Shown: positions 8,368 to 62,378 of the stretch, piece by piece | How positions within the stretch are numbered: the stretch's first letter is position 1 | Layout of the letters: each line of letters opens with the position of its first letter | Assembly (NCBI GenBank): GCA_022592445.1 | Contig: JABYQR010000113.1 | Coordinates: 1 to 64,000, forward strand | DNA: 64,000 nucleotides | Source of the DNA: Cytidiella melzeri | Lineage: Eukaryota > Basidiomycota > Agaricomycetes > Polyporales > Irpicaceae | Direction: 5' to 3' | Position numbers and translations under genes: made by a program | The notes under the pieces: model-generated | Told to the model about the DNA's origin: nothing | Database searches by the model: none | The model's input: only the letters and a program-made list of their open reading frames with translations

Positions 8368-9470
8368 CTAAGATTCAGCAACGACCCACTCTTTGAGAAG
8401 CGTTGCGGCCTGCACATCGGATGCCAACTTGGCCTTGAGCTTGACGTTCGCCTTCTGAAGCTCGTCGACGACGTACTTCCAGTAGGTGTCATCCTTCTTT
8501 GAAGGCCCAGCAGCGCTGCTTGCGCCTTTGGCAGCGGTGTTGGCTTGAAGTTCTCGGTGCTTGAGATAGCACTGACGCTGCAGATTGAGGTTAGCAGGGC
8601 AAACTTCCCTCGAGAGCAACAGGACTTACAAGAAAAGCAAAGCGAACGTAGTGCGAGCAGTCTGTGCTGATGTATTCAGGCACAATGTTGCTGACCAGGG
8701 CCATTATATCTTGTGCCCCTTTGCGCGGCTTATTTTTGTTGGTGCTTGAGACGAGGGACACGGCGATCTGTAGGGCAAGACCAGTGACCATTGAGCCATG
8801 TCAATAGAATATCGCGACTCACCGTGGCCTTGATATCCGATTGATGGCGGGTCATGGCATTGCTTACAATGGTCCGTATTGTCCTCCACTTCTCCATGGA
8901 GTGCAAGGTGACGCAATCGAGCTTGAATCATTCCGGGGACTCCTTGACGAAGGTCTGCGAATGTTTGGAAGTTAGCACATATGACACGCATGCTCTAGAG
9001 CGCACTTACCATGACCGTGTCGACTGCATTCTTGAGGTAGGCAGGAATTGACGGACACATCAAGCACACCAGAACCTGGTTGGTAACATGGGCCTTGTAA
9101 GACTTGGACAGCAAAGTCTCGTCCCTCTTCGCCAAGAGCTGGGCCTTGAGGAGGATGAAGGTCTCGATGCTGCGTTGGTCGGAATCAAGCTGTGGCAGTG
9201 ATGTCAGCAAGTGGGAGGACGGAACAGTGCTACTTACCTGGCTGAAGTGGTTAGCCGCGGTCTCGTTGAGATGGTACTCCAAGCATCTGCTGCGCGCAAA
9301 TGCAAGTGATTGCTTCTTCCTCTCAGGTCCCAGCTCGGGGGAACTATCACGGCGACAACAACAAATGGACCCAACAGGCTGAACGCCAGTGCTGATGGAG
9401 GCAATGGATTTGGTGCCGTCTGATCAGGAAAGTTGCAGGACGTTGTTCAGGCCGGTGTCATCCTCGCTGG
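8368..9470 (-). pseudogene. Companion gene of the DNA transposon, decayed copy
   Basis: Relative of the intact 433-aa gene at 49823-51451. Minus-strand exons: upstream to 9238, 9189-9010, 8954-8823, 8767-8630 and 8577-8368, all joined in phase 0 by 48-55 bp introns. Three splice points fall at the same places in the paralogue: before the exon that begins TFVKESPE here and ETIARHPS there; after DIKAT here and DIKKM there; after VRFAFL here and ARFAYL there. Shared residues include DIMALV against DIVALV. A TGA in the 8954-8823 exon (after KESPE) and an unclear 5' end indicate decay. Function unknown. It lies downstream of the decayed transposase on the same strand, whereas the intact pair is divergent. 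Confidence 0.68.
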
Positions 9471-9491: not shown

Positions 9492-11379
9492 TAGAAAGAA
9501 GAGGAAGAAGGAAATTGAAGGTTTGAGGCCACAGCTTTGTGCGACGAGGGCATGTTGCCACAATAAAGGTTGTCGAAGAGACTCATGAGAGAGGAAAGGG
9601 TGGTGAACAACCAGTGTGACCTGGAGAAAGGTCAGAAGCGCCCTGCATCAATATAAACGCACTGTGTTTATCTTTGTTTGGTCAACAATGAGGCCACATG
9701 AATTGACCACAACAAGTGAGCATGTTGTACTATTAAAAAGCGAGGCACTAGTTTACATGTGCGAAGAGTCATTTTTGGGCCCAAATGGCGTTGCGCGGGT
9801 CCAGCACAAGAATCGATTGAAAGATTGAGGAGGCACGGCTGAGGGGTGTGGTGGATCGCAATCTGCAACAGGCATGTTGATTGTGTGGGATGGGGGCGGC
9901 GGCGGAATTCATGATTGCATGTTCATTGCATGTGTCGGGTGTGGGGGGAATGGTGGAAGGAACTGCGGCGGTGCAAATGGAGGTGGAAAGAATGGCCCAG
10001 ACTCAGGAATGTGAGGACCTGGCTGTGCTGCTGGCCAAGAAAATGAACGCTGCCATTGTGAATCAGCAAATGCAGCGCCAGTGTTGCTCTCGCGATTTTG
10101 AGATTGAGAGCTGGAAGCAATTGGATTGGTTTGGAAACCTCTGCCTGCTTCCTTCTGCCCACAGAAAATGAGCACATGCGCAATAATTGCAGGAACTGAT
10201 ACTCACATCCATTTCTGTTACCTTGCGCTTTGCACCTTGCTTGACCGAGCTCCGTTGAGGTGTTTCAAATGGTTGTGCAGTCACAGCCCTGCTGTCTGCA
10301 TGTGATGAACATGATCATTAGTGTGTGTGCGGATATACCCTTCATACACAGGGGCTTACCTGGTAAAGGCTGTGTCATGACATTGGACACATTGAACGTT
10401 GTTGGAGTGAGATCTCTCCCAGTGATCGGTGTTGTCATCCTTGTGGTGCTGGAAGGTGGAAGTGCAGCTTTTGATGCAGCTTTTTGAGCTCCCATGTGCT
10501 TCACAGCTGCTTTGCGCACTTCCAAAATTGCTGTGTCAGGGACCACTGGCTCAGCCTGTCGTAGCAATGAAGGAAGAGCTTTAGCAATCTGCTCGTAGTT
10601 GTGAATTGAGTAGATATTGAGTAAGAAATGAGGTGTCTCTGCATGCTGAGCAAGTTGTTTGGTACAATGCTCAGTGAAGGTGTGTTCTTGCCGAGTAGGA
10701 TGCAATGTCACTCCTATGCATTGGGAGTCCGAGTCCCTGCAATTGTGCTGGGTATTGACTGCACATATGATGTCCTGCAATCATCCCTGACTGAGCACAT
10801 ACAGCTGTACAATTGAGTTTAACATACCTGGAGTGTGAGAAGGGCAGTGTCTTGTGTCAAGGTCAGTCGAGGGACTCGAAGCTTCTCATGTCGTGTGTCC
10901 TCTATCTTGAACAGCTGAACAGAGATGTGAGAAACTTGGGAGACATTTTCCAGTGGCACCAGCATCTCAATAACACGTGCAAACATGTACTAAGAGCAGG
11001 AGAAGATTCAATGATAGTGAAACATTTACCAAAACTAAGATAGCTCACCTGATTATCACCATACTTAACAAGAATATCTTTCCCAGTGACAGCTTTATCG
11101 CTGTTGACGAGAGTCATAGACTCAACCTTGAAATAGTGTTGTGTGTCCAGTCCATAGGCAGCAAGTTGAGCTGAGGGTGAGCTGCTAGTGACCGTTGAGG
11201 AGTAGGTTTGTGCCCATGTAACAGACATGGAATGTCTCTGCTGTGACTTGGGTAGGTGTGCAGATCCTAGCATAATTATCAGTACAGTCACAGAGATATT
11301 GTAGCATCTTCAGAATCATACCAGAAATGACAGGCTTGGTTTCTTTATAACCCAGGTGTGCTTTCTCTTCTGGATGATC

Positions 11380-12126
11380 GGTAACAGTTAAGGTTACTAC
11401 TCACCAGATAAGTTGATAAACTGGGGGGAGTTGATGGAGATAGAGAGTTAGAGTGGTGGTGAGCGAAGTACTGGTGGGTACTGAGTAGTCCTGGTTCAAC
11501 AGAGTGGATAAGACTGAGGGGATATGCCCTCAGGAGTGCCTCTATATATACATGAAGGGGAGGACCCCAGGTACTACCCTAAGACCCCTAATACCTACAT
11601 GAGTAAGCGAAGTAATCTACCTTACTAAGCATGCCCTATGCCCTAGTGGTGCCACTTCAATAATCAACCAATAGCAATTGTCCCCATGACCTGACGCCAT
11701 GACCCAGTCCCAAGGCTAGACTTGTTCTAGCTTGTTCTAAGACAAGGCTAGACTTTTCCAGAAGGTTCTAAGAACTATGACATCATCTAATGGAATGTTC
11801 TATACTATGACATCATAGTTCCAGCATGTTCCACAAGGTTCAGAGAGTTCTATCATGTGATACACAGATAAGGAAAGGAGCGCATCAGCGCATCAGAGAC
11901 AGGAGGTGCATCAGCGCATCAATTGATAGGCACTGAGAATAAGCGCCGGAATAAGCGCCTGATAAGCGCCAGATAAGTGCCTGATAAGCGCCAGATAAGC
12001 GCTGGATAAGCGCCTAAATAGACGCCAGATAAGCGCTGGATAAGCGCTTGACAAGCGCTTAAATATTCCCAATAATACCGTTGCCTGGTAAGGCAAGTCT
12101 TGTAGAAACATTGAAAATCTGTGACA
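11380..12126 (-). mobile_element. Solo LTR inserted in the transposase gene, 5-bp target duplication
   Basis: On the minus strand it begins TGTCACAG and ends CTGTTACC, imperfect inverted termini. The word TGATC stands immediately on both sides (11375-11379 and 12127-12131), a 5-bp target duplication. A TATA-like TATATATA sits at about 11543-11550 and the AGCGC-rich iterations lie near the 5' end. With the LTR and one TGATC left out, the flanking reading frame runs straight on and matches the paralogue, which independently fixes both borders. Confidence 0.85.
11935..12062 (-). repeat. Degenerate 10-11 bp minisatellite inside the solo LTR
   Basis: About ten imperfect units of ATAAGCGCCAG / ATAAGCGCTGG. 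Many contain the palindromic core AGCGCT. A related GCGCATCA iteration lies just outside (11880-11925). It occupies the U3-like part of the LTR. Confidence 0.8.
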
Positions 12127-15100
12127 TGATCCCTCATGTAGTCTCAAACTCCTTAACCTGCAGATCTCCAAGTCTTCTTCTCGGCATCGTACCAGAATTC
12201 ACCAAGGGCCACATGCTTTACAGTGTCCTGTGCAGCAAATGTCTTACATGAGTCGTGACTGGGTGATTGCCAATTGCTGTGGATGCATGAAAGCCGGAAT
12301 ACGTGGTTGAAGCTCTCATATTGTTCTGTCGAAAAGAGAATGGCAGGGCCAAAACGGCGAATGTATGCTGGAAGATGGACTAGGAAGTAAAATTTTGGCT
12401 TGGTGATGAGAATGCTTGGTGCACATTTTGCAGTAATATTGAGAAGGTCTTGAATGGTCCTAGATAGATGGGCCTACAGCAGCAATGAGAGAGTGCAACA
12501 CCATAAAGGAAAATGAAAAATGCCAAGTATACTTCTTGGTCCTCAATACTGGTATGCCAGAGAAGAACAACCAGTTCTCCAATCACATTCCATCCATCAA
12601 GTACATCCTGAGGAACTAGGTCATGAATGAGGAATGGCATTACTTGAGCAAGGCTCTTGAAATGCTTCCTATTAAGACCCCCACGGTAATGGCAGATGTA
12701 TGCTGGAACAAACGCAGGGAGATTGAGGCCATGCACCGCGAGTGACTCCATTCGTGCTTCAAGTAAAGCAAGCGACTTTGCTTTTTTGATGACATGAACA
12801 GTCTGGCCCCAGAAGTACTTGACAACACCTAGCAGCACTGTGTGTAGTATCTCAGTAGGTGTATCCATGTGAATGTTAACTCCTTGAATGATATATGAGA
12901 TCAATGGTAACATGAATATTGTGGAAACTGACCGGCTAGTCCAAGCAATGGGTTAATCCAGTCATCCACGGAATGTGGCTGAAGTAGGCGATCTAGCTCT
13001 GTCTCAAGCTGCTTTCGCATTGCATCCTCAGATGCCTGGGAATTGTCTGGCCGTGCCTTCCGAAGCTGTTTACCCATCTCAATCAAGGTATGAATGATGC
13101 TGTGAAATCCTGAGTCCCAAACACCAGTGGCCTGACGTGCGCTGTCAACCTTGCTCTGAGCTCCAGGGAGAACAGACATGCTGAGCTGTCTTCGAATTTC
13201 TGCCTCTGTTTCATGTGGTGTTCGAAGTGGGCCTTCCTACAGTACACAAAAAATCGGATTCCCAACCTTGACTTTTGAAAAAGAAAATAGAAAGAAACAT
13301 ACAGAGAATAGCTCAAGAAAGCCTTCTTCTGAGGCTTTATGAGCTTTGGTACCACCAACTTTGCAAGTTTGGCAAAAGAAATTACAACCAAGCCCTTTGT
13401 GACTGCATTCCTCTGCTTGCATTGGATTGTCGCCACCCAAAAGGAAGCCATATGGAAGCAACAAAACCTCTTCGTCATACTTGCAGTCCCAGGCCTCAAC
13501 ACCATTCTGAGCTGCTGAACTATTTGAGAAGTGAGTAAAAAGTACCAGTATAATTTTTCTGCAGCAGAATTCAGGACTGTACTTACTTTATGGAGTCACA
13601 GACAGCCTTTGCAAGCTCTATTGGAGACGCATGTGGTGACAATGAGACAAACTTGACCGAGAATTCCTTTTCTATCATCTCCCGTGGCAAGTTTGCGTTA
13701 GAGGCGTAGACAACATGATGCTTGTTCCACTGCTTTGAAACATTGCCAGAAACATCATCGATGAACATGATGACTGGGACAGCGTAGCACATCCTGCCCT
13801 TGGCAAGTTGTCGAATGGGATTTGGCATTTTTTTGGCGTATTTCCAAGACTCATCTGTGCAAATTAAGTTAAGTGAGAAAGTCACTAAGTGGGTTTATTG
13901 AGACATACCAGAGAACAGCTGGACATGTTCAGGATATGACCCATACAATTTGTCGAAGGGAACCTTGAAGGTAGCCACAGGACATAGCATCTGTCAGTTG
14001 CTCACAACAAAACCACGCTATATTTAATCAACCAGTGAGAAAGAATACATCCAATTCAAGATGTACCTTACCTCAGTCCAAGAAACGCTACGGACTAATG
14101 CTGTAATTGTCTCTGGTGTGCCTCCAGCAGTTTGGATTGAGTCTCGTTGTGAACTGCAACAATCTAAAAAGAACTGCTCCGATATAAAATAGGATGCGTC
14201 GGATTACTGAAGCAGCTCCTGAGTGAAAAAGATCTTCCCTTCAACCCTTACAGCAGGGGTGACAATGCCTTCAGGGCCATCGCAAAGCATCTTGAAACCA
14301 TGCTGTGCTTCAGACATATGCCCTCCACGGTCTTCAAAAAAAGTCGAACATTGCAAATCAAGTCAAAGGATTTGCATAATCCTAAAACAGGTTCAGATTG
14401 AGATTTGATTACAAGATATACAATCTGTACCTTTGCAACCGCAGCCCCAATATCATTGATGTAGAAGATATTGCCGCTAGGACTTACAACTTTCTTTGTG
14501 GGATCTCCAACCAGACAACGGAGGTCCTGGCGCATTTTCTTGATAGCATACAAGGTTGGAATGTCACGTGCATGTAATGCCTTGGCCCATTTGAGCATTG
14601 CACTGATTTGTGCATCCGGGAACCGCAGACGTGGAGACGTTAGCAAGAGGTCTGTGAGAAAGAGCCGAAAGAGCCGATGAAGATAAGTAGCTATCTGACT
14701 GTAGGACCCTACTTATACTTACTGACTTGGACGGCCATGGAGAGAACAATGAATCCTGAGCAGATGGCTGACTGGAGTGTGAGAACTCTGGTATACCTAT
14801 GATAGATTGTTAGCGGGACTTTTAACTCATGCAATGCTTCATACCCAGGTAGGACAACTCACCTATGCCTATGGTATCCTGCTCAGGATGCTCATCTTGC
14901 ATGTCATCCTCGAACAGCTCATACTCTGGATCCAACATCTCATTGCGCTCGGCATTTTTGGCAGCATACTCCTCCTCCTCTTTATCAACCTCTAATACCC
15001 CCACACTGTGCTCACAATCCTGGAGTTGCCAGAGCTCACTGAATGGAACTGGATCATGAGATATGTCCACCAGAGGCGCTTCATCCTGAGATGTGTCTGG

Positions 15101-32341: not shown

Positions 32342-33016
32342 TTCTCAAATGGAGGGGGGGGGGGGTTCTTTCCTCTTTCTGTGTAGTAGCAACAACGTGC
32401 TTAGACGGGGCTAATTCATCAGGCCTAGGACATACCACATTCATCCGTCCTGGAAAAACTGTTAGAAAGTAGCAGTTGCAGCAGGCACCCGCAGCTGCAG
32501 GCCGCCACGGGGCCGGGGGTCTATGTCTTTCCCTCCCTTTCTGTCTCTGCCAAGTACAGGTTGTGGCACTTGGGCGGTGCTTGAACACCACTGCCACGCT
32601 GTCCGGTCCACACCACTCATCCGAGGACTGTATAAAACAATTCACAATCGAGGCGGGCGCTGGCAGCCGCTTCATGATTTCGGATTATGGTCTCACATGA
32701 AACTATATTACGCACGGACCTTTATGAACTTAGATATATATATAAATAAAATAAAATAAAAAGTCATCCCCCAACGGGTCCACTGTTGTCGTGCACTCCC
32801 CACTCCGCGAGCAATCTATTCTTTCTTGCTGTATAGAAAAGAGGGCGTTGCAGTGTCTACAAAGGCACTGTAAGACTCATTTCAGGCTGTTTCTCCGACA
32901 GTGCTTCTTTGGCTCAGATATAAGATGGCTAGGGTTCACGACGGATGGTTTGCTGCCCGACACCTATCTCAAGCCCCATCCAACCTTGCACCCACAAGCT
33001 GCCACCAGAAGTGACA
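32342..33016. other. Right flank of the copia insertion; no gene supported
   Basis: Contains a G run (32354-32365) in the frame that may continue the broken ORF from 22439, then mixed sequence and an A/T-rich TATATATAAATAAAATAAAA stretch near 32735-32760. No domain is recognisable. Confidence 0.4.
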
Positions 33017-49097: not shown

Positions 49098-49822
49098 TAA
49101 GAAGTCAGATGGGAGTACGGAGGGTAAAATAAGTGCGGTCAGGCGCTGGTGCGGAATGGACTACGTAAGCAACGGAATTTCGTCGGGAGGTCAAACCATG
49201 GCATCACTGTAGTCTCGGTCCCAGACGTGAGGGACGCAACCCTACACCGCCAACTTGATCTCAGGTGGTTACCGCCCTGATCGTGAATAATGCTCGCCGC
49301 GCGCTTGGCGACTGAGGTCTCTGGTATTGTCCCCTGAAATCCATCAGAAACGTGAAGAAAAATTTCTACAATATCACTCCTTCCTCTGAATAGCTCGAGA
49401 CCCACCGCGTGAGCACTATAGGTTTGTCACTGTCCTCTCAGAAGATGCGAACGAATGTAATACACATGTAATGCAGGCAGGCATCTCAATTCTTGCCGCA
49501 TGATATCTTTCAAATTTTCATCGCAGTGACTGCAGCTGTGCGCGGGGTTCCTCGACGAAGATCAATGCGATTTGAGCTCCCGACCCAGCACCCAGCAGCG
49601 GCTGCTCTCCGCTCATTCAAATCATAGCACGGTCATTGAGTAAACAAGGCTTATCATTATAATGAAAGATCTAGTAGCTATATGTGGAAACACGCATTAA
49701 GAGATCAAAATATCAATCAGAGTCAACAAAGGTAAGAAGAACAAGGCTGAATAGAATGAGAATAAGCACAAAAGGAGCGAGCATGACCGTGACTTGGAAC
49801 CTTAGAGTCAGTGAAGACCAGT
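49098..49822. other. Intergenic between RPF2 and the companion gene
   Basis: No domain-bearing frame. It should contain the RPF2 promoter and the left border of the transposon-like gene pair, but I found no terminal inverted repeat matching the region right of 56207. Confidence 0.4.
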
Positions 49823-51451
49823 TCATCCCTTGTCTTCGTTGTCATGATCTTCGCTACCGTCCTCGTCGTCATAGTCTTGTTCCGACGGCGGAAGAATTGG
49901 GGCAGCCAGTGCGGTCTCTTCAATTTCGCGTTGAATCGCGGTGCCTGATGTGTTCGTGTATCCTTTCGGGTCTGATGGGTGGCCGTAGATACGCAGATCG
50001 TCGTGGAGAATATCAAGAAAAACCCTGTCACTCATAGTCAATATACGCGGCATATCAATACACGAGATGAAAGAACAAACTTCGCGATGTCCTCTTTCTC
50101 AGTCGGAGTTCCTTTGAATGCTTCGCGGATAGCTTGAAGTCCTTCGTCGACATTAGGCCAGAAATCCCCTCCACCTCCGGCTTGACAGAAAACTTGACGC
50201 TGTCATCATCGTGTCAGACGTCGTTAAGCAGCTGAAATCATATCAGGCACATACCAGATATGCGAAACGAGCACACATTGGCGCTGTAACAATGACATCC
50301 TTCTTGCTGTTGCCGATGCAATTCTTGACAAGGGCAACGATGTCGACAGCCTTCACACGCTCTCCGTCAGGGTTTTGAGGGTTGGACTCTCCGATAGACA
50401 GCTTGATCTACGCATGTTATCATCAGAAATATTAGCACAAAACGTAATCCAGAACGTACCATCTTTTTGATGTCTTTACGAGCCTCTGTACATCGGCGCC
50501 TCACGTATGTATCCACGACCTTGCGCTTGGGAGGAGAGTTGTAAATTGCGGCCGTAACTCCCCACGACGGATGTCGAGCAATGGTTTCCTGAAGTAAAAG
50601 ATATAAGTGAGGTTGCATCATGCTAGCACGAGAATGATAATACGCACCAGTAACAAGCGAGGAACATCATCCATGTAGCCAGGTGAGTTCGGGGAAGTCA
50701 TGATGACGGTTTTGTATTTTTCGATCTGCATCTATAGAAAAGTGAGGACTGGTCTCGGAGTCACCATGAAATGACAGGCAGAGAATACCTTCAGCTCGCC
50801 ATTATTTTTGATGACAAACGGAGCGTCAGCAGGCTGTATGATATCTAGTCGCTCGTGTAACTTCAAAGTGTCAGCGTGAGCTTGGAACCGCTGTTCTAAC
50901 GCCGACATCTAGGTGACGAGGTCAGTCGTTGAAGTCAGAACATACAGTGACATTACCTTGGTGAATGCAACGAAAGCTTCCTTGTTTTTTCCCGAAAGGC
51001 TTGTCCTTTGCATTACTTGCCGCGCCATGATTTCGTTACTGTCTGTAGGGGGGTTTCGTCGCTTTTGGCCGGTGCTGGGCCGAACCACAATAGGCCCAAC
51101 AAACTCAGGCGAGCTTGAGCTATGAGACTCGGTAGAAGACTCGGCCTCTCGAGACTCGCTAGAGGAGTCTCCAGTCCCGTCGCTGGTAGAATCACCGGAA
51201 GTCCCGTCGCTGGTAGAATCACCGGAAGTCCCGTCGCTGGTAGAATTACCAGACAATGGTGCGGCTGCGGCACGCCGGGCACGGTACTCAGCCTGAGCTG
51301 GGGACGAGAGTGAGAAGGATTGCTGGTATCCTGACAATGACCACCCTGGTGACGGTGTTCGGGTTTGTGACCTCGACTCAGCGTGAGACTCCGATGCCCG
51401 TGCAAGGCGAGATCTCAGCGCAGCCATATATGCAACCTGATTTGCAGGCAT
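49823..51451 (-). CDS. Companion protein of the DNA-transposon gene pair, 433 aa
   Basis: Intact seven-exon gene on the minus strand: 51451-50957, 50908-50789, 50731-50648, 50588-50460, 50407-50255, 50199-50081, 50024-49823. The first five introns lie in phase 0. The N-terminal 150 residues are Ser/Thr/Gly-rich with a three-fold TSDGTSGDS repeat. The middle is helical and conserved with the decayed copy at 8368-9470 (VTAAIYNSPPKRK...ARKDIKKM; DIVALVKNCI...MCARFAYLRQ). The C-terminus is acidic (PSEQDYDDEDGSEDHDNED). Function unknown; no catalytic motif seen. It shares a 199-bp spacer with the divergent transposase-like gene, which suggests joint expression and a role in the same element, for example an accessory DNA-binding or regulatory protein (inference). 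Confidence 0.72.
51173..51250 (-). repeat. 27-bp tandem repeat, about three units, in the companion gene
   Basis: Units at 51173-51199, 51200-51226 and a partial 51227-51250 are nearly identical and encode nine-residue Ser/Thr/Asp/Gly repeats. A 27-bp unit keeps frame, so copy number can vary without breaking the gene. Confidence 0.9.
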
Positions 51452-51650
51452 AATAGCGAGATGAGTGAGGTGAACAGAGAGAAGGCAAAAAGTTACAAGT
51501 GGTCGATGGTGGTGCCAGCGCAACAAGAAATCCGGCAAGTTGAATTTTGCGAGCTGAAAGAGGCCGCAGCATCAGCGGATCAAAATTCCTGGCACAACTT
51601 GCACCCACCTGAGTACGCAAAAAAGGCTTGAGCGTACTTATTCAATAAAC
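51452..51650. promoter_or_regulatory. Bidirectional promoter region of the two-gene unit
   Basis: 199 bp between the two divergent ATGs. No TATA consensus is clear; the plus side has ATTCAATAAAC just before its ATG. Shared promoter is inferred from the spacing alone. Confidence 0.5.
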
Positions 51651-54600
51651 ATGGATATGCCTCGTGCAGGAAAACGCAGGAAACTGCCCGAAAGTGAGTT
51701 CCTTCATTTATCTCATATAAAGATGACTAAATAAGAACGCAGATTTTGAAGAGATCTCTGAAACCAGTACTCACGTTCAATGCACGCCTTGCACGAAACA
51801 TCTTGGCACAGTACAGCACATTCGCCGGTCAGGCATTTCCGGGCACGCTAAGGCTGCAAAGCATCTAGCTGCATTGTTATGGTGTCAAACTCAGCTTCGC
51901 AGTAGCAACAACAAGGCCAAAGAACGTACGACTGCCGGAGCCTCAGCAATTATTTCTTCTCTTCCAACTATCCATATTGAAGCCGTGCAGCCTGCACAAT
52001 CCACGTCAGCGCAGCAAGTAAACTGCTTGGAGATGCTCGACATCGATGAAGACGGACTACTCACAGATCAATACGGAACATTTATCCCTTTGAATGCTGG
52101 CATAGAACAGGAGCATGAGTCTTTGTCGGATGTACAGCTGCGAGACGAGATGTGGGACTTTTGCACCTACGGACACTTGAACCCGCAGGGTTTTGCTTTC
52201 GCGAACAACGCCGAAGATCTTGAGAACATGTACACCATGAATGAAGACACCAACTTTCCGGATTTTACTGCAGACATGGAAGCAACGGGTGAGCCAACTC
52301 TCACGGTTATAACGATACGATGAAAGTACTAACAGATATGATATCAACATCAGGATTCTATGACATCGAGTCCGATGATGGTGATGATTGTGCGGAGAGC
52401 CTGAATGATCATCACACTGCAGCGGATGACGATAGTGAATGGGCTCCATATGAAACAAAGACCGTAAGTCAATAGCAGAAATACTCACGAGTCGCCAAGA
52501 ACACTAATAAAATCATATTCTATAGATGTTCTTCGTAGCGTTTCTCGATAGCCTCCCTCGGCTTCGCCTTTCCAATGATCATCTAAAAACAATATTATGG
52601 GTGATGCGACAATGCGGTACACCAAACGTACCATCATTTTCTGCTCTTCGAGCGAATCAAGCAAGACTAAAGGCAACAATTGGCCCTACCAGTACGCGAC
52701 ATGTCTCGACCTTGGGTAATGAGTTCCATATGAATAGTGCTTCAAAGCTAATCAGTCTTGTGAGTGTATAATGAATGCGAGAGAATTAAATCTAACCTGC
52801 AAAATGATAGGACTTTGCGAACCCACTCGTTCGGCCACATATTCACCCCTATGTCGAAATCTCGTCGTCACTGTCTGAATTCTATCAGGCAGAACGTTTA
52901 AGGAATGAGAACGTTGACTTACTACAATTGATGTGGGCAGACTTCAAAAGATCGCCAGATCAGCATTTCTATATCAAAGAAATTGCGCAGACGAACAATG
53001 GTACCTTTGTAATACCAATGAGATGGGTACGTCTCATTGGAGCGCACGGAAACGAGGTGGACTGTGCAGATGTATACGAAGTGGACTATGATGGAATGGT
53101 AAGAATTGCGCTGTTATCAATTAAGAGATGACTCACCGACCGCATCGTTCTCAGACTTGCAAGGCAGTTATTAGAGTCGATGAAGCGCTAACTCGTCTTG
53201 AAACTAGCCAACTAAAGCATACGTACCTTGACCTTGTTGGTGAAGGCTATAGCTTTGTTTTTGAACGTAAGTGCAGCAACTTCTAAAAATTTTGACGTAT
53301 GCATTAAAAGGTTAAACCGTACCATGGTAGAGAGCGCTCCGGAATGGTGCAGGGTCATGCCACACCCAATACGATTATTGGCTCAGGGAAGACCTACATT
53401 CACAATCAGTATAATGTCCTGGAAGGACGACGTGTCAGGAAACCGATCAAAGCAATACAACGCGCACACTAATAATTACCTTGCAAACCTAAACCTTCCT
53501 CACGCTCTTCTTCAGCAGGAATACAACATCCGCTTTAGTGCAACTTCCCCTCACGCATCTGCGCTTGAATTAGCAGACGGACTTTCCCAAGACATCGGAG
53601 CCAACAAATGGCATGATGGCTATGACTGTGCTCTTCAAGAGGAGATCCTGTTTCGACTCATCTGCCGCATTGAGCCTGCAGATAACCCCCAACAGTCAGA
53701 GCTGTGCTCACATATCGGAATGCAAGGAAGCAGCTTCTGCCGGCGCTGTAAGGCTGGAGGGTCACTTGATGAAGTTACGAGCGAGGCAGGATACAAAGCG
53801 CTATTTCGGGTGCGTTTTAATGATGCCTGTCAAATTTGCCAGTAACAAGCCACTCACATGCGTACTGTAGCCCACTATCCCTCGTACGGTACCGGAGACA
53901 ATTGCAGAGATCAAGGCGCAGCTTGTGGCAGCAACTCACGGAATCGCAAAGACCGTTGAGTCCATGCAGACAAAATCCGGTATCAAAGATCCAATTGCAC
54001 AGCACTGGATTGACAAATTAATCGCAAAGAGCCGTTTGATACACGAAGAACGAACGACAAATCCACTCACTCAGGATCCTCGTCTCAAGAATCGACGACT
54101 AACAGGAGCTGCGCGCCAAGCTGTTCAAAGTGAGATTGAAAACGAGATAGAGCAAGAGCTGTTGCGGTGGCTCACAGAGCAGCCCATGCACCGTTATCAG
54201 AATATTCCTGTAGATTCAGGTGAGCATATATCCATGATTGTTGTCGAAGGGCTTTGACGTACTGAATACACACTGTCACTGGCAGAGCGACGAAGTCAGA
54301 TTCGCGCTGGTGACCATTTCAATATCTTACTTACCCTTGATGGTACGTGGCCAGGTTCATGACCTATCAAAGCGCAGCTTATCCTGTAATGTTCCAACGT
54401 TAGGCCTCAATGTTCATCGAGACACTCTCGTTGAAATTCTTCATACTTGGGGTCTTGGTCAAGGAAAGTACGCTTGGCATAAAAGCACCACAACGTGGAA
54501 TGATCAACAGCTCACCTGCTTAGCCATTCGGCTGCAGTCTTCTTCGATTGATGGTCTGTCCACGTCCACATTCCCAATCCGTGGACACTATTTCATCAAG

Positions 54601-56207
54601 TATCGGAATGGATTAGTCGGAAAGCATTTCAAAGCCATTCAACAGGTGATGGTATTTCACCTGTATACTGAGCTCGAAAACCCGCTCTTACTCGCACTGT
54701 GGAGGGCAACTGGTGAAGTCGGAGCGTTGCTGCACTATTCAACAATTGACGACTTGGAATCTTACCTTGTATGTCGTCTTATCTCTTTCTGTTTGCACGG
54801 TGTATTCACACGGCCGCATGTAAAGGAGGACCTCGAAATCCTCATCGATAACGTGCTAGATATTTGGGCAGAGCTTGATCCGCTGCGCATCATAGAAAAG
54901 GGTAAGCTCCATGTGCTTACCCATCTTATTCAAGATATTCGCAATGCAGGTCCCGCTATTGTTTACTCGACCGAGATTTTCGAGTGCTGGAACGCAATCT
55001 TTCGGACATGCAGCATTCTCTCGAACCATCAATCTCCTAGCCACGACATTGCGGAGGCACTTGGAGAGTTGGAGTGTTTCAAACACCTGGTCAGCGGTGG
55101 CTGGTGGAAAACAAAGGCAGGAAAGTACGTACAAGCTGGCAAGGGAGTACGGAACATGTTTCTTACATATCCGGATATTCAACGACGACTTGGATGGGTG
55201 GAACGGCGGATACTTGTTCCTGGTAAGCAACTCATTAGCATTGATGCGATCTATGTTTCTAACGGTGGACCTTAATAACTTTGAAAGGATCAGTAAAGCA
55301 GAAGAGTCGCAAGAAACGCACGAGCGCACGCTGGTCTTCAATCCGTCAAGCCGAACACTTAACAATAGATACGCTGGAGCCAGGGAACTTGAGCGGTCGC
55401 TCTGAAGGCGAATGGGAGTACGGATCTCATGTTGTATCCCAAGTGCATGACATTTGCCGTGAAGGCTCTTGGGTTTTTTATGATTTGAAATCAGACGATG
55501 ATCAGGTGCGACACAGAGCACGGCATTCTGTTCAAGTCCAGATCTCTGACCACCCTATAAAGACTTACACCTCACATGCTGGTCGGATTCGTCGTGTGCT
55601 AATATCAAAGTTGTCAACTTTGCACGCCTTCATAGTAATTGACGAGTTCAACATCCTTGAGCAGTTAGACGAACGTACACGCATGCCAGTTCTCGTTCGC
55701 GGAAAATCTGCTAACATGTGCCATTTTGTGGAACCTATGGTACGCACGGATGTGTTTCATAAAGCTCTGTTCTCATTCTACCATTTTCCATTATAGCATG
55801 TCAAGTTCATATTCAACGCTCAACACAACTGCCTTCTTGCGGAGTGTAGCATCAAAGACTCGGGCTCCGACCTGCAGGAACGCCAAGCTACGACGCTTCC
55901 CCGTAAAGTTGTTATGCATGAGGCTCGGGAATGCTATCTCCTAAACCTGCACGGACTTCATAATGCCTCCCTCATCCGCCAAGCACTACCGCGACACCTG
56001 ACGAAGCCAGTGCCCTACCTTCAAGATAGAGCGAGCAAGCATCGAGAATTTGCAGCGGCTGCACGCCAATTGCTGATAACCAAGCGTTCAGATGCAGTAG
56101 CAAAGGCAAAGGCGACTCGCGCACGGAACTCGAAGGCAGCCCCAAAAGATGTGCAGCCTCAGGCGGCCGGAACAACGGAATCGACTTCACGAATTGATAA
56201 TGCATAG
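51651..56207 (+). CDS. Large transposase-like protein of a fungal DNA transposon, intact, 1299 aa
   Basis: Twelve exons give one uninterrupted frame: 51651-51693, 51743-52288, 52354-52463, 52526-52759, 52811-53098, 53155-53266, 53331-53809, 53871-54219, 54286-54342, 54404-55222, 55288-55739, 55797-56207. Domains in order: a C-x2-C-x17-H-x5-H finger (CTPC...GHAKAAKH) near residue 27; an acidic linker; a core with DDVSGN-x-SKQYNAH, SPHASALELADGL, ADNPQQSELCSH and FCRRCKAGG; DTLVEILHTWGLG; FSTEIFECWNAIF-like YSTEIFECW with NHQSPSHDIAEAL; and a C-terminal NAQHNC...YLLNLH block ending in a Lys/Arg-rich tail. All blocks recur in the decayed copy at 9990-15400. Likely moves or excises its element in the nucleus; exact superfamily (KDZ/Plavaka or CACTA-like) and catalytic residues not proven. 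Confidence 0.74.
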
Positions 56208-56744
56208 CTTTGTACGCCACATATGCACCCCCTTGCCTACATGAACACTCACATTCTCCGCAGATTCTAGCACTGGTACCTCTTCGATCCACTGTCACGG
56301 CCTGTCACCTACCGTGACTCAGATAGAAATGTAATGCAGCTCACCATCCCTTTGTTATTTTATCTGTTCAGGATTTCTGTAGGTAGACACTATGTATAGC
56401 ATATGTTTCCTGCAAATTTTGAGTGCGTAGCGTGAAAATTCACCGAAGTGTTATTCATTTACACTTCGCACTTGAGGCACCTAATATTGCGTGACGTCAC
56501 GCGTATCGTGCGATTGAAACCGCGCATTCTGCCTCAGGCTTTCCTTCTCTCTTTATGACAGCGACCACTCCGATACTCCTGTTTGCATCTTTGCCCACCA
56601 AGACGAAGTCCTCCTCCAACCCCCTCGGCTCAAGCAGCGCTGTTGCTCCAATTCAAAGCCGTGGTTGCAAACATCCATGCCAAATGCGAGTAAGTATCGG
56701 ACCAGGGGTCGACTTCGCCAAACACGCTCATTGACTGATTCACC
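56208..56744. other. Spacer with short inverted repeats; possible transposon border
   Basis: Holds CGAAGTGT / ACACTTCG arms (56444-56451 and 56461-56468, 9-base loop), a GTCACGG / CCGTGAC pair near 56301-56321 and the palindrome CGTGACGTCACG near 56492-56503. None matches the left side well enough to be called a terminal repeat. Confidence 0.5.
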
Positions 56745-58488
<1,744 letters not shown>

Positions 58489-61388: not shown

Positions 61389-62378
61389 CTATAACTGTCC
61401 TTTCTTGATGGGTTTCCAACAAAGCTTCACAGGCGAGTTGCGAGGGGCATTACTGGGCTGAGGCTGAGGGTGAGCTTGCGCCGCCGACGGAGGAGTGGGT
61501 TGGAAGGAAAAAGGTGCTTGCATGGTGCTCGGAAAGGGGGTCTCGGATGACAGCGGGAACTGGGGCAGATCATAGAGGCAAGGCGAATTTGTGTCTGGAA
61601 GCAAGCCATAGTACGGGGTAAAAGACAGCAAGGGCGAGGCAAGAGACGACGAGGGCGAGACCAGAGACGACGAGGGCGAGGCAAGAGACGACAAGGACGA
61701 GGCAAGAGACGACGGGGGCGAGGCAAGAGATGAGAAGGGAAAGACGAGAGACGACGAGGGCGAGGCAAGATTCAACGGACTGGAAGGTGACGCGGAGGCA
61801 AGGAACGAGGAGCTGGAGGACTGAATAAGAGCAGCGTCCAACGCCGGAAGCAATTGGGACACCCTCTCCTGAGGGATTGGCACCAGAAGGGGATCTGTGC
61901 GTACAAAGCGTTTGCTGGATCCGTTGTACATGGCAAACAACGTTTGGCCGGGAGTAGTCTGCAGGGGCAAGTCCTTGTTTTGCTGGACAAGATCGAGCAG
62001 ATGTGCATTGCGGCTGTCCTCTAGGCGCGTTTTGTCTTGGATCACCTTATTTGCTTCCGTCTTCTGACGCTTTTGAGACGCAGTAGCAGCCAGCTGTGCA
62101 ATATGTTGCTCCTCAGCTCGAGCAACCACATTGAGAACTTCTTGACCGAGGCGAGTGGCGAATCTCCATTCAGGAATGAATAGCTGCAGCAGATCGAGAG
62201 TCGAGACATGGGCATTTGTTGCTATAAAGTTGAGGTACTTGTCCGCGAGCAGGGTTTGAGGGGGGAATGAGCACTTGCTATAGCTCTGCTGCCAACGCTC
62301 AATTCTCCAGCTATGCAAGGCTTGAAAGACAACTTCTCGACAATTTCCGCGCCGTTCTTCCCTGCGAATCTTCACCAT
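61389..62378 (-). CDS. C-terminal part of the RecQ-type helicase gene, out of frame with it
   Basis: Open frame of 329 codons from an ATG at 62378. It reads as the extension expected after the helicase (SWRIERWQQSYSKC, PQTLLADKYLNFIAT, DLLQLFIPEWRFATRLGQEVLNVV), followed by a coiled basic stretch (AEEQHIAQLAATASQKRQK) and a long Ser/Pro/Leu low-complexity tail built from 7-residue repeats. The upstream helicase frame stops at 62374-62372, four bases inside this ORF, so a frameshift or a missed intron separates the two. Ends 50 bp from the end of the convergent DUF6589 gene. Confidence 0.55.
   Translation of the reverse strand: MVKIRREERRGNCREVVFQALHSWRIERWQQSYSKCSFPPQTLLADKYLNFIATNAHVSTLDLLQLFIPEWRFATRLGQEVLNVVARAEEQHIAQLAATASQKRQKTEANKVIQDKTRLEDSRNAHLLDLVQQNKDLPLQTTPGQTLFAMYNGSSKRFVRTDPLLVPIPQERVSQLLPALDAALIQSSSSSFLASASPSSPLNLASPSSSLVFPFSSLASPPSSLASSLSSLASPSSSLVSPSSSLASPLLSFTPYYGLLPDTNSPCLYDLPQFPLSSETPFPSTMQAPFSFQPTPPSAAQAHPQPQPSNAPRNSPVKLCWKPIKKGQL
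61626..61772 (-). repeat. 21-bp tandem repeat (about seven units) in the helicase tail
   Basis: Units close to GAGGGCGAGGCAAGAGACGAC on the plus strand, encoding SSLASPS-like heptads on the minus strand. In-frame, imperfect. Confidence 0.85.

Follow-up and report, generated by a model that had tools for sequence, protein, structure and literature searches.

A TA-flanked two-gene transposon of Cytidiella melzeri with a predicted RAG1-like transposase and an apparently undescribed companion protein

RAG1 depends on RAG2, and it is still debated why a partner is required by some relatives of RAG1 and Transib and not by others. RAG2 has a kelch/PHD fold, Transib and RAG transposons generate 5-bp target-site duplications, and plant En/Spm encodes a second protein, as does the element described here, which lies in a 64,000-nucleotide stretch (the window) of the basidiomycete Cytidiella melzeri (contig JABYQR010000113.1, positions 1 to 64,000; hereafter C17). 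According to the accessible text of Kojima 2025 (PMC12730594), most of the CMCT clade (EnSpm-Mirage-Chapaev-Transib and relatives) has CA..TG ends, ESTA comprises EnSpm-like transposons with TA target duplications, Plavaka elements end in TGT..ACA or CATCA..TGATG, and KDZ duplications measure 7–8 bp.

Judged by its sequence, the window element is a complete, recently active transposon. The original prediction of two divergent genes on either side of a 199-bp spacer, one on the minus strand with seven exons (433 amino acids, aa) and one on the plus strand with 12 (1299 aa), was reproduced by splicing, with GT-AG introns of 48–66 nt in both genes. The two frames, described there as complete, were open in the window and also in a copy on contig C126 that is 99.6% identical. 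The unit had been called transposon-like and placed at 49823..56207; it is a transposon, and those limits were too short, the true extent being 49245–58233 plus a TA on each side:

49245–58233: whole transposon, 8,989 bp, CACCGCC...GGCGGTG ends (from aligned copies and their ends)
49243–49244: left TA target-site duplication (TA at both borders in 6/6 copies; single TA at two empty sites)
49245–49257, plus strand: left terminal inverted repeat CACCGCCAACTTG (aligned copies)
58219–58233, minus strand: right terminal inverted repeat, end CAAAAGTTGGCGGTG (aligned copies)
58234–58235: right TA target-site duplication (copy flanks and empty sites)
49823–51451, minus strand: companion gene, 433 aa, seven exons at 51451–50957, 50908–50789, 50731–50648, 50588–50460, 50407–50255, 50199–50081 and 50024–49823 (spliced model; copies; intron pattern akin in distant copies)
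51452–51650: 199-bp spacer between both start codons, positioned from the sequence and presumed to be a bidirectional promoter
51651–56207, plus strand: transposase gene, 1299 aa, 12 exons at 51651–51693, 51743–52288, 52354–52463, 52526–52759, 52811–53098, 53155–53266, 53331–53809, 53871–54219, 54286–54342, 54404–55222, 55288–55739 and 55797–56207 (spliced model; homologues; predicted fold)

The limits were determined from copies in one genome, that of C. melzeri (49.7 Mb, 731 contigs), the species also named for proteins identical or nearly identical to those of the element. A search with the transposase DNA returned a 99% copy on C126, copies at 82–84% on C292, C233 and C28, and weaker matches beyond. 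The C126 copy was collinear with the window element at 99.6% identity over 9 kb, and the C292, C233 and C28 copies were collinear at 79–80%, minus a stretch of approximately 1.5–1.6 kb. These five copies share the ends TACACCGCC(A/G)ACTTG and CAAAAG(T/C)TGGCGGTGTA. A sixth (C23:88586-92490), recovered by searching the genome with both end segments, is an internal-deletion derivative that lacks the transposase and the central part of the companion but keeps both ends and most of a tubulin insert; it is inserted in sequence related to the lineage-B transposase near 12 kb of the window. Terminal inverted repeats, which were to be sought by aligning several copies, were found in this way, the CACCGCC...GGCGGTG ends being present in all six. 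No repeat longer than TA adjoined the ends in any of the six copies examined, and a single TA was present at two empty sites, which sets the element proper at 49245–58233, flanked by TA:

32704–32705: empty site of the C292 copy, one TA (C292 flank matched to the window)
12089–12090: empty site of the C23 copy, one TA, within the decayed lineage-B transposase (C23 flank matched to the window)

A target duplication longer than TA is ruled out, the sole long flank repeat, that of the window copy, standing off the left end. This 15-base sequence, GTCTCGGTCCCAGAC, occurs on both flanks (49212–49226 and 58236–58250), 16 bases off the left end; it is no ordinary target duplication and its origin is unexplained. 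A search for subterminal repeats in the element gave short pairs only.

Synonymous divergence (dS) between the window and C126 copies was 0.0065 for the companion and 0.0080 for the transposase and, with both frames open in both copies, one transposition was therefore recent. Compared with C292 and C233 (dS 0.51–0.75), the window companion had a ratio of nonsynonymous to synonymous divergence (dN/dS) of 0.25–0.26 and the window transposase one of 0.15; hence purifying selection has acted on both genes over the longer term. The recent pairs, each with few changes, gave values of 0.46 and 0.13 (window–C126) and of 0.76 and 0.63 (C292–C233) for the companion and transposase, respectively. In the C28 copy, both genes are interrupted by stops. 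The C292 and C233 copies are stop-free, but may be damaged, because additional introns (one and three, respectively) had to be introduced into their transposase models.

The association between companion and transposase was then followed across the genome by script, comparing 76 transposase core loci with 24 lineage-A companions and with 35 lineage-B companions, the latter found starting from a relative at 8.4–9.4 kb of the window. The search counts are lower bounds. Where several transposases lay nearby, the script favoured the expected orientation; a pure nearest-neighbour rule changes one locus, C642. A companion was located within 6 kb of a family transposase at 51 of 66 loci and within 12 kb at 53; for comparison, no more than 2% of the genome is as close as 6 kb to a core locus of the transposase. 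The remaining 13 comprise four loci where the core would fall off the contig, one with the transposase deleted and eight orphans, all of lineage B. Companions standing mostly alone, one of the two outcomes which the original prediction had set against itself, were not seen in this genome.

Within lineage A, a transposase core lay no more than 6 kb away from 18 of the 24 companions and no more than 12 kb from two others (C499 and C60), all 20 being head-to-head. At C632 and C361, transposase sequence without a core match lies head-to-head alongside, running into the contig end at C632 and showing the N-terminal part only at C361; the last two loci are C23, with its deleted transposase, and C666, at a contig start. 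Lineage-B companions were found up to 6 kb downstream of the transposase and on the same strand in 25 of 35 cases, the other ten being C394 and C644, both at contig starts, and the eight orphans. Lineage C, found upstream of the C196 transposase (spliced alignment score 95 vs. a maximum of 53 in 24 random pieces), has five loci, four of them head-to-head at 3.65–3.73 kb from the transposase core and one (C304) where the core would fall off the contig. Lineage D consists of two decayed loci, C569 and C6, head-to-head at 3.73–3.84 kb, with weak matches (E 0.002–0.003). Orientation is thus head-to-head in three lineages (A, C and D) and same-strand in the fourth (B). Profile comparison of the companions, scoring 98.4% for A to C (E 9.6e-15) and 98.0% for A to B (E 2e-13), supports their homology. 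In the reverse count, a companion was found within 6 kb of 45 of the 76 core loci, or of 49 with a further four included, and none was found at 27. No clear companion was present in the stretches examined at C46 and C203; upstream of C46, on the minus strand, a weak match with a score of 59 (above the null maximum of 53) looked by eye like a retrotransposon gag and was not used.

The copies are related by descent and the companion–transposase pairs are hence not independent events; the telling evidence for association is the diverged lineages and the two gene orders. In addition, a whole or partial companion lies inside the terminal repeats in all six close copies. Given 51 of 66 companions near a transposase vs. 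at most 2% of the genome, in four lineages, the companion therefore belongs to the element, as had been proposed, and the purifying selection on it agrees with this. Association and selection together argue that the element needs its companion.

The transposase contains the following regions and motifs:

51781–51864, plus strand: N-terminal C-x2-C ... H-x5-H, a BED-like zinc finger by eye (same motif in P0020; no Pfam match)
52844–53344, plus strand: embedded BAH-like domain region, aa 323–449, introns included
53426–53431, plus strand: candidate first catalytic Asp, D477/D478, DDVSGN (invariant in 25/25 aligned homologues)
53681–53683, plus strand: candidate second catalytic Asp, D562, PADNP (invariant in 25/25)
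53738–53749, plus strand: C(2)C motif, C581 and C584 (first Cys in 24/25; second Cys in 13, Asp in 11, Val in 1)
54910–54924, plus strand: H(3)H motif, H909 and H913 (invariant in 25/25)
54982–54984, plus strand: candidate catalytic Glu, E933 (invariant in 25/25, as is E930)

In the numbering of P0004, D303, H626, H630 and E650 are conserved in 25/25 and C322 in 24/25; C325 is Cys in 13/25 vs. Asp in 11/25, so the second Cys of the C(2)C motif is often replaced. In a fold search, the predicted structure matched RAG1, RAG-like and Transib transposases, whose order of catalytic and zinc motifs is retained, and the BAH-like domain is embedded in this predicted model. The family comprises 371 homologous proteins (E ≤ 1e-3), and all 120 among the matches listed are from mushroom-forming fungi by name. 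No convincing Pfam match was obtained for the 34 family proteins scanned (the window protein plus 25 plus 8), the window transposase having no Pfam match whatever; defining the family would therefore improve repeat annotation. Sequence-profile searches of the PDB with the transposase and the companion returned nothing convincing.

The N-terminus of the companion is acidic and rich in Ser, its middle is basic (isoelectric point 9.4) and its tail acidic; the basic core would fit nucleic-acid binding. Exon 1 holds three in-frame 27-bp repeats within the Ser-rich N-terminus (51173–51246, minus strand), each of nine STSDGTSGD-like residues, and the annotated protein P0003 of the C23 copy has two of them. 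Eight distant companion copies could be spliced (C401, C97, C283, C731, C368, C489, C730 and C632): five of the models resemble the window gene in having six introns, and the three others, all partial, have four or five; the C97 model contains a stop. Identity to the window protein was 29–33% for the four aligned. No significant Pfam or NCBIfam match was obtained, the sole Pfam family standing at E 0.2, and no homologue outside C. melzeri was returned from public proteins by a search which needs exact five-residue words and scored the best 7,992 candidates. The predicted structure was of low confidence (pLDDT 34) and was used for no fold search. The original prediction knew of no description of this family; likewise, no published account was found in searches of open-access literature, including the accessible parts of PMC12730594 and PMC10799480 and with Repbase outside its scope. 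The companion is thus apparently an undescribed protein.

We consider it probable that the element is an autonomous cut-and-paste transposon of the EnSpm/Transib/RAG1 (CMCT) clade with a dedicated accessory protein acting with the transposase, where all biochemical steps and the role of the companion are what we infer. The large protein would be a DDE transposase, probably binding the CACCGCC ends, cutting by a RAG1/Transib-type reaction and inserting at TA, while its BAH-like domain may recognise histones or nucleosomes, whether at donor or at target sites. The companion, presumably expressed from the shared 199-bp spacer, would act with the transposase as a nuclear accessory protein. It might bind DNA and serve the transposase in assembly or stability, much as RAG2 or TnpA, or it might regulate the element or counter its silencing; an accessory role in transposition, or one in regulation, is most likely. 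A wider proposal is put forward tentatively: two-component RAG1-like transposons might form a large, so far undescribed group in mushrooms, with a BAH-domain transposase and an obligatory, fast-evolving partner, as an independent counterpart of RAG1–RAG2 in which chromatin reading resides in the transposase and not in the partner.

A serious rival, although we regard it as the less probable account, casts the companion as a regulatory or anti-silencing protein that is dispensable for transposition chemistry and sustains expression of the element in a methylating fungus, the latter being the part proposed for TET/JBP enzymes in other fungal transposons. In line with this, a TET/JBP gene is repeatedly carried by fungal DNA transposons and thought to counter silencing, according to the accessible text of Kojima 2025 (PMC12730594); the companion diverges faster than the transposase (71–72% vs. 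85–86% identity between the window copy and C292/C233), and its position relative to the transposase differs among lineages. However, without a significant Pfam or NCBIfam match, its sequence shows no sign of TET/JBP or of any other enzyme.

It is improbable that the companion is passive cargo, a host gene that the element picked up, even though the same element has captured a tubulin sequence and eight lineage-B companions stand without a transposase:

56289–57885: sub-lineage-specific insert with a captured alpha-tubulin fragment (Tubulin domain in open reading frame 56735–57232, PF00091, E 1.8e-20)

This insert is present in C126 and mostly in C23, and is absent from C292, from C233 and, up to 57790, from C28. 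The strongest match to the tubulin piece beyond the element copies was a further copy of its exons at C113:181657-183107 (72–96% by stretch); the label "alpha" is our own reading, and the 5′ part of the insert resembles a repeat elsewhere in the genome. In contrast to this broken fragment limited to one sub-lineage, the companion is under purifying selection, has a similar intron pattern in distant copies and is found in four transposase lineages. Chance adjacency of two unrelated genes, for which no support was found, is refuted to near certainty by the common terminal repeats enclosing both genes in close copies and by the 51 of 66 companions near transposases.

Returning to the preferred reading of an element with its own accessory protein, relatives of both genes had also been reported at 8.4–15.4 kb; they are present, but decayed and otherwise arranged, the two sharing the minus strand, with the companion downstream:

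8434–9407, minus strand: companion relative of lineage B, decayed and lying downstream of the transposase
10529–14664, minus strand: decayed lineage-B transposase

The best spliced score of this companion among seven queries was 79 (range 48–79, with one query matching elsewhere), compared with at most 49 among 60 random pieces of the window, which were scored with two of the seven queries. A tandem repeat with a 21-bp period is located at 61589–61791 of the window.

As an intact, recently moved two-gene fungal relative, the element provides a separate test case for the need for a partner among RAG1/Transib relatives, and the predicted BAH-like insert would make chromatin-guided insertion testable. 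With regard to the CMCT clade, CA..TG ends were found in 6/6 copies, the 2–5 bp target-site duplication takes the form of TA at two empty sites, and the predicted structure has the RAG1/Transib-like fold. RAG1/RAG2 and ProtoRAG (BbRAGL) likewise have a RAG1-like core fold and a second gene alongside that of the transposase; unlike them, the window element has a TA duplication, head-to-head genes and a BAH-like insert, and the TA speaks against a Transib or RAG transposon with its 5-bp duplication. As to a likeness of the companion to RAG2, it gave no significant Pfam match and a structural model of low confidence.

Basidiomycete Plavaka and KDZ transposons, some with a second gene (TET/JBP), differ in their ends and duplications as far as the accessible text describes them, and the window element has no Pfam match to either: its CACCGCC..GGCGGTG ends argue against Plavaka, and its TA duplication argues against KDZ. 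A TET/JBP companion of a KDZ or Plavaka element is disfavoured, since the companion gave no significant Pfam match and the ends are not the expected ones. Fungal EnSpm/CACTA elements share the CAC..GTG ends and the CMCT motif order but, in the same source, have a 3-bp duplication, whereas the window element has TA alone and no Pfam transposase match.

The closest described group is ESTA, of which the element, compared by description, would be a candidate member. As in ESTA, a TA duplication is combined with an EnSpm/RAG1-like transposase carrying C(2)C and H(3-4)H motifs and with the CA..TG ends given for most of the clade; unlike the Pucciniomycotina families with a TET/JBP gene in the accessible description, the window element is agaricomycete and carries another companion.
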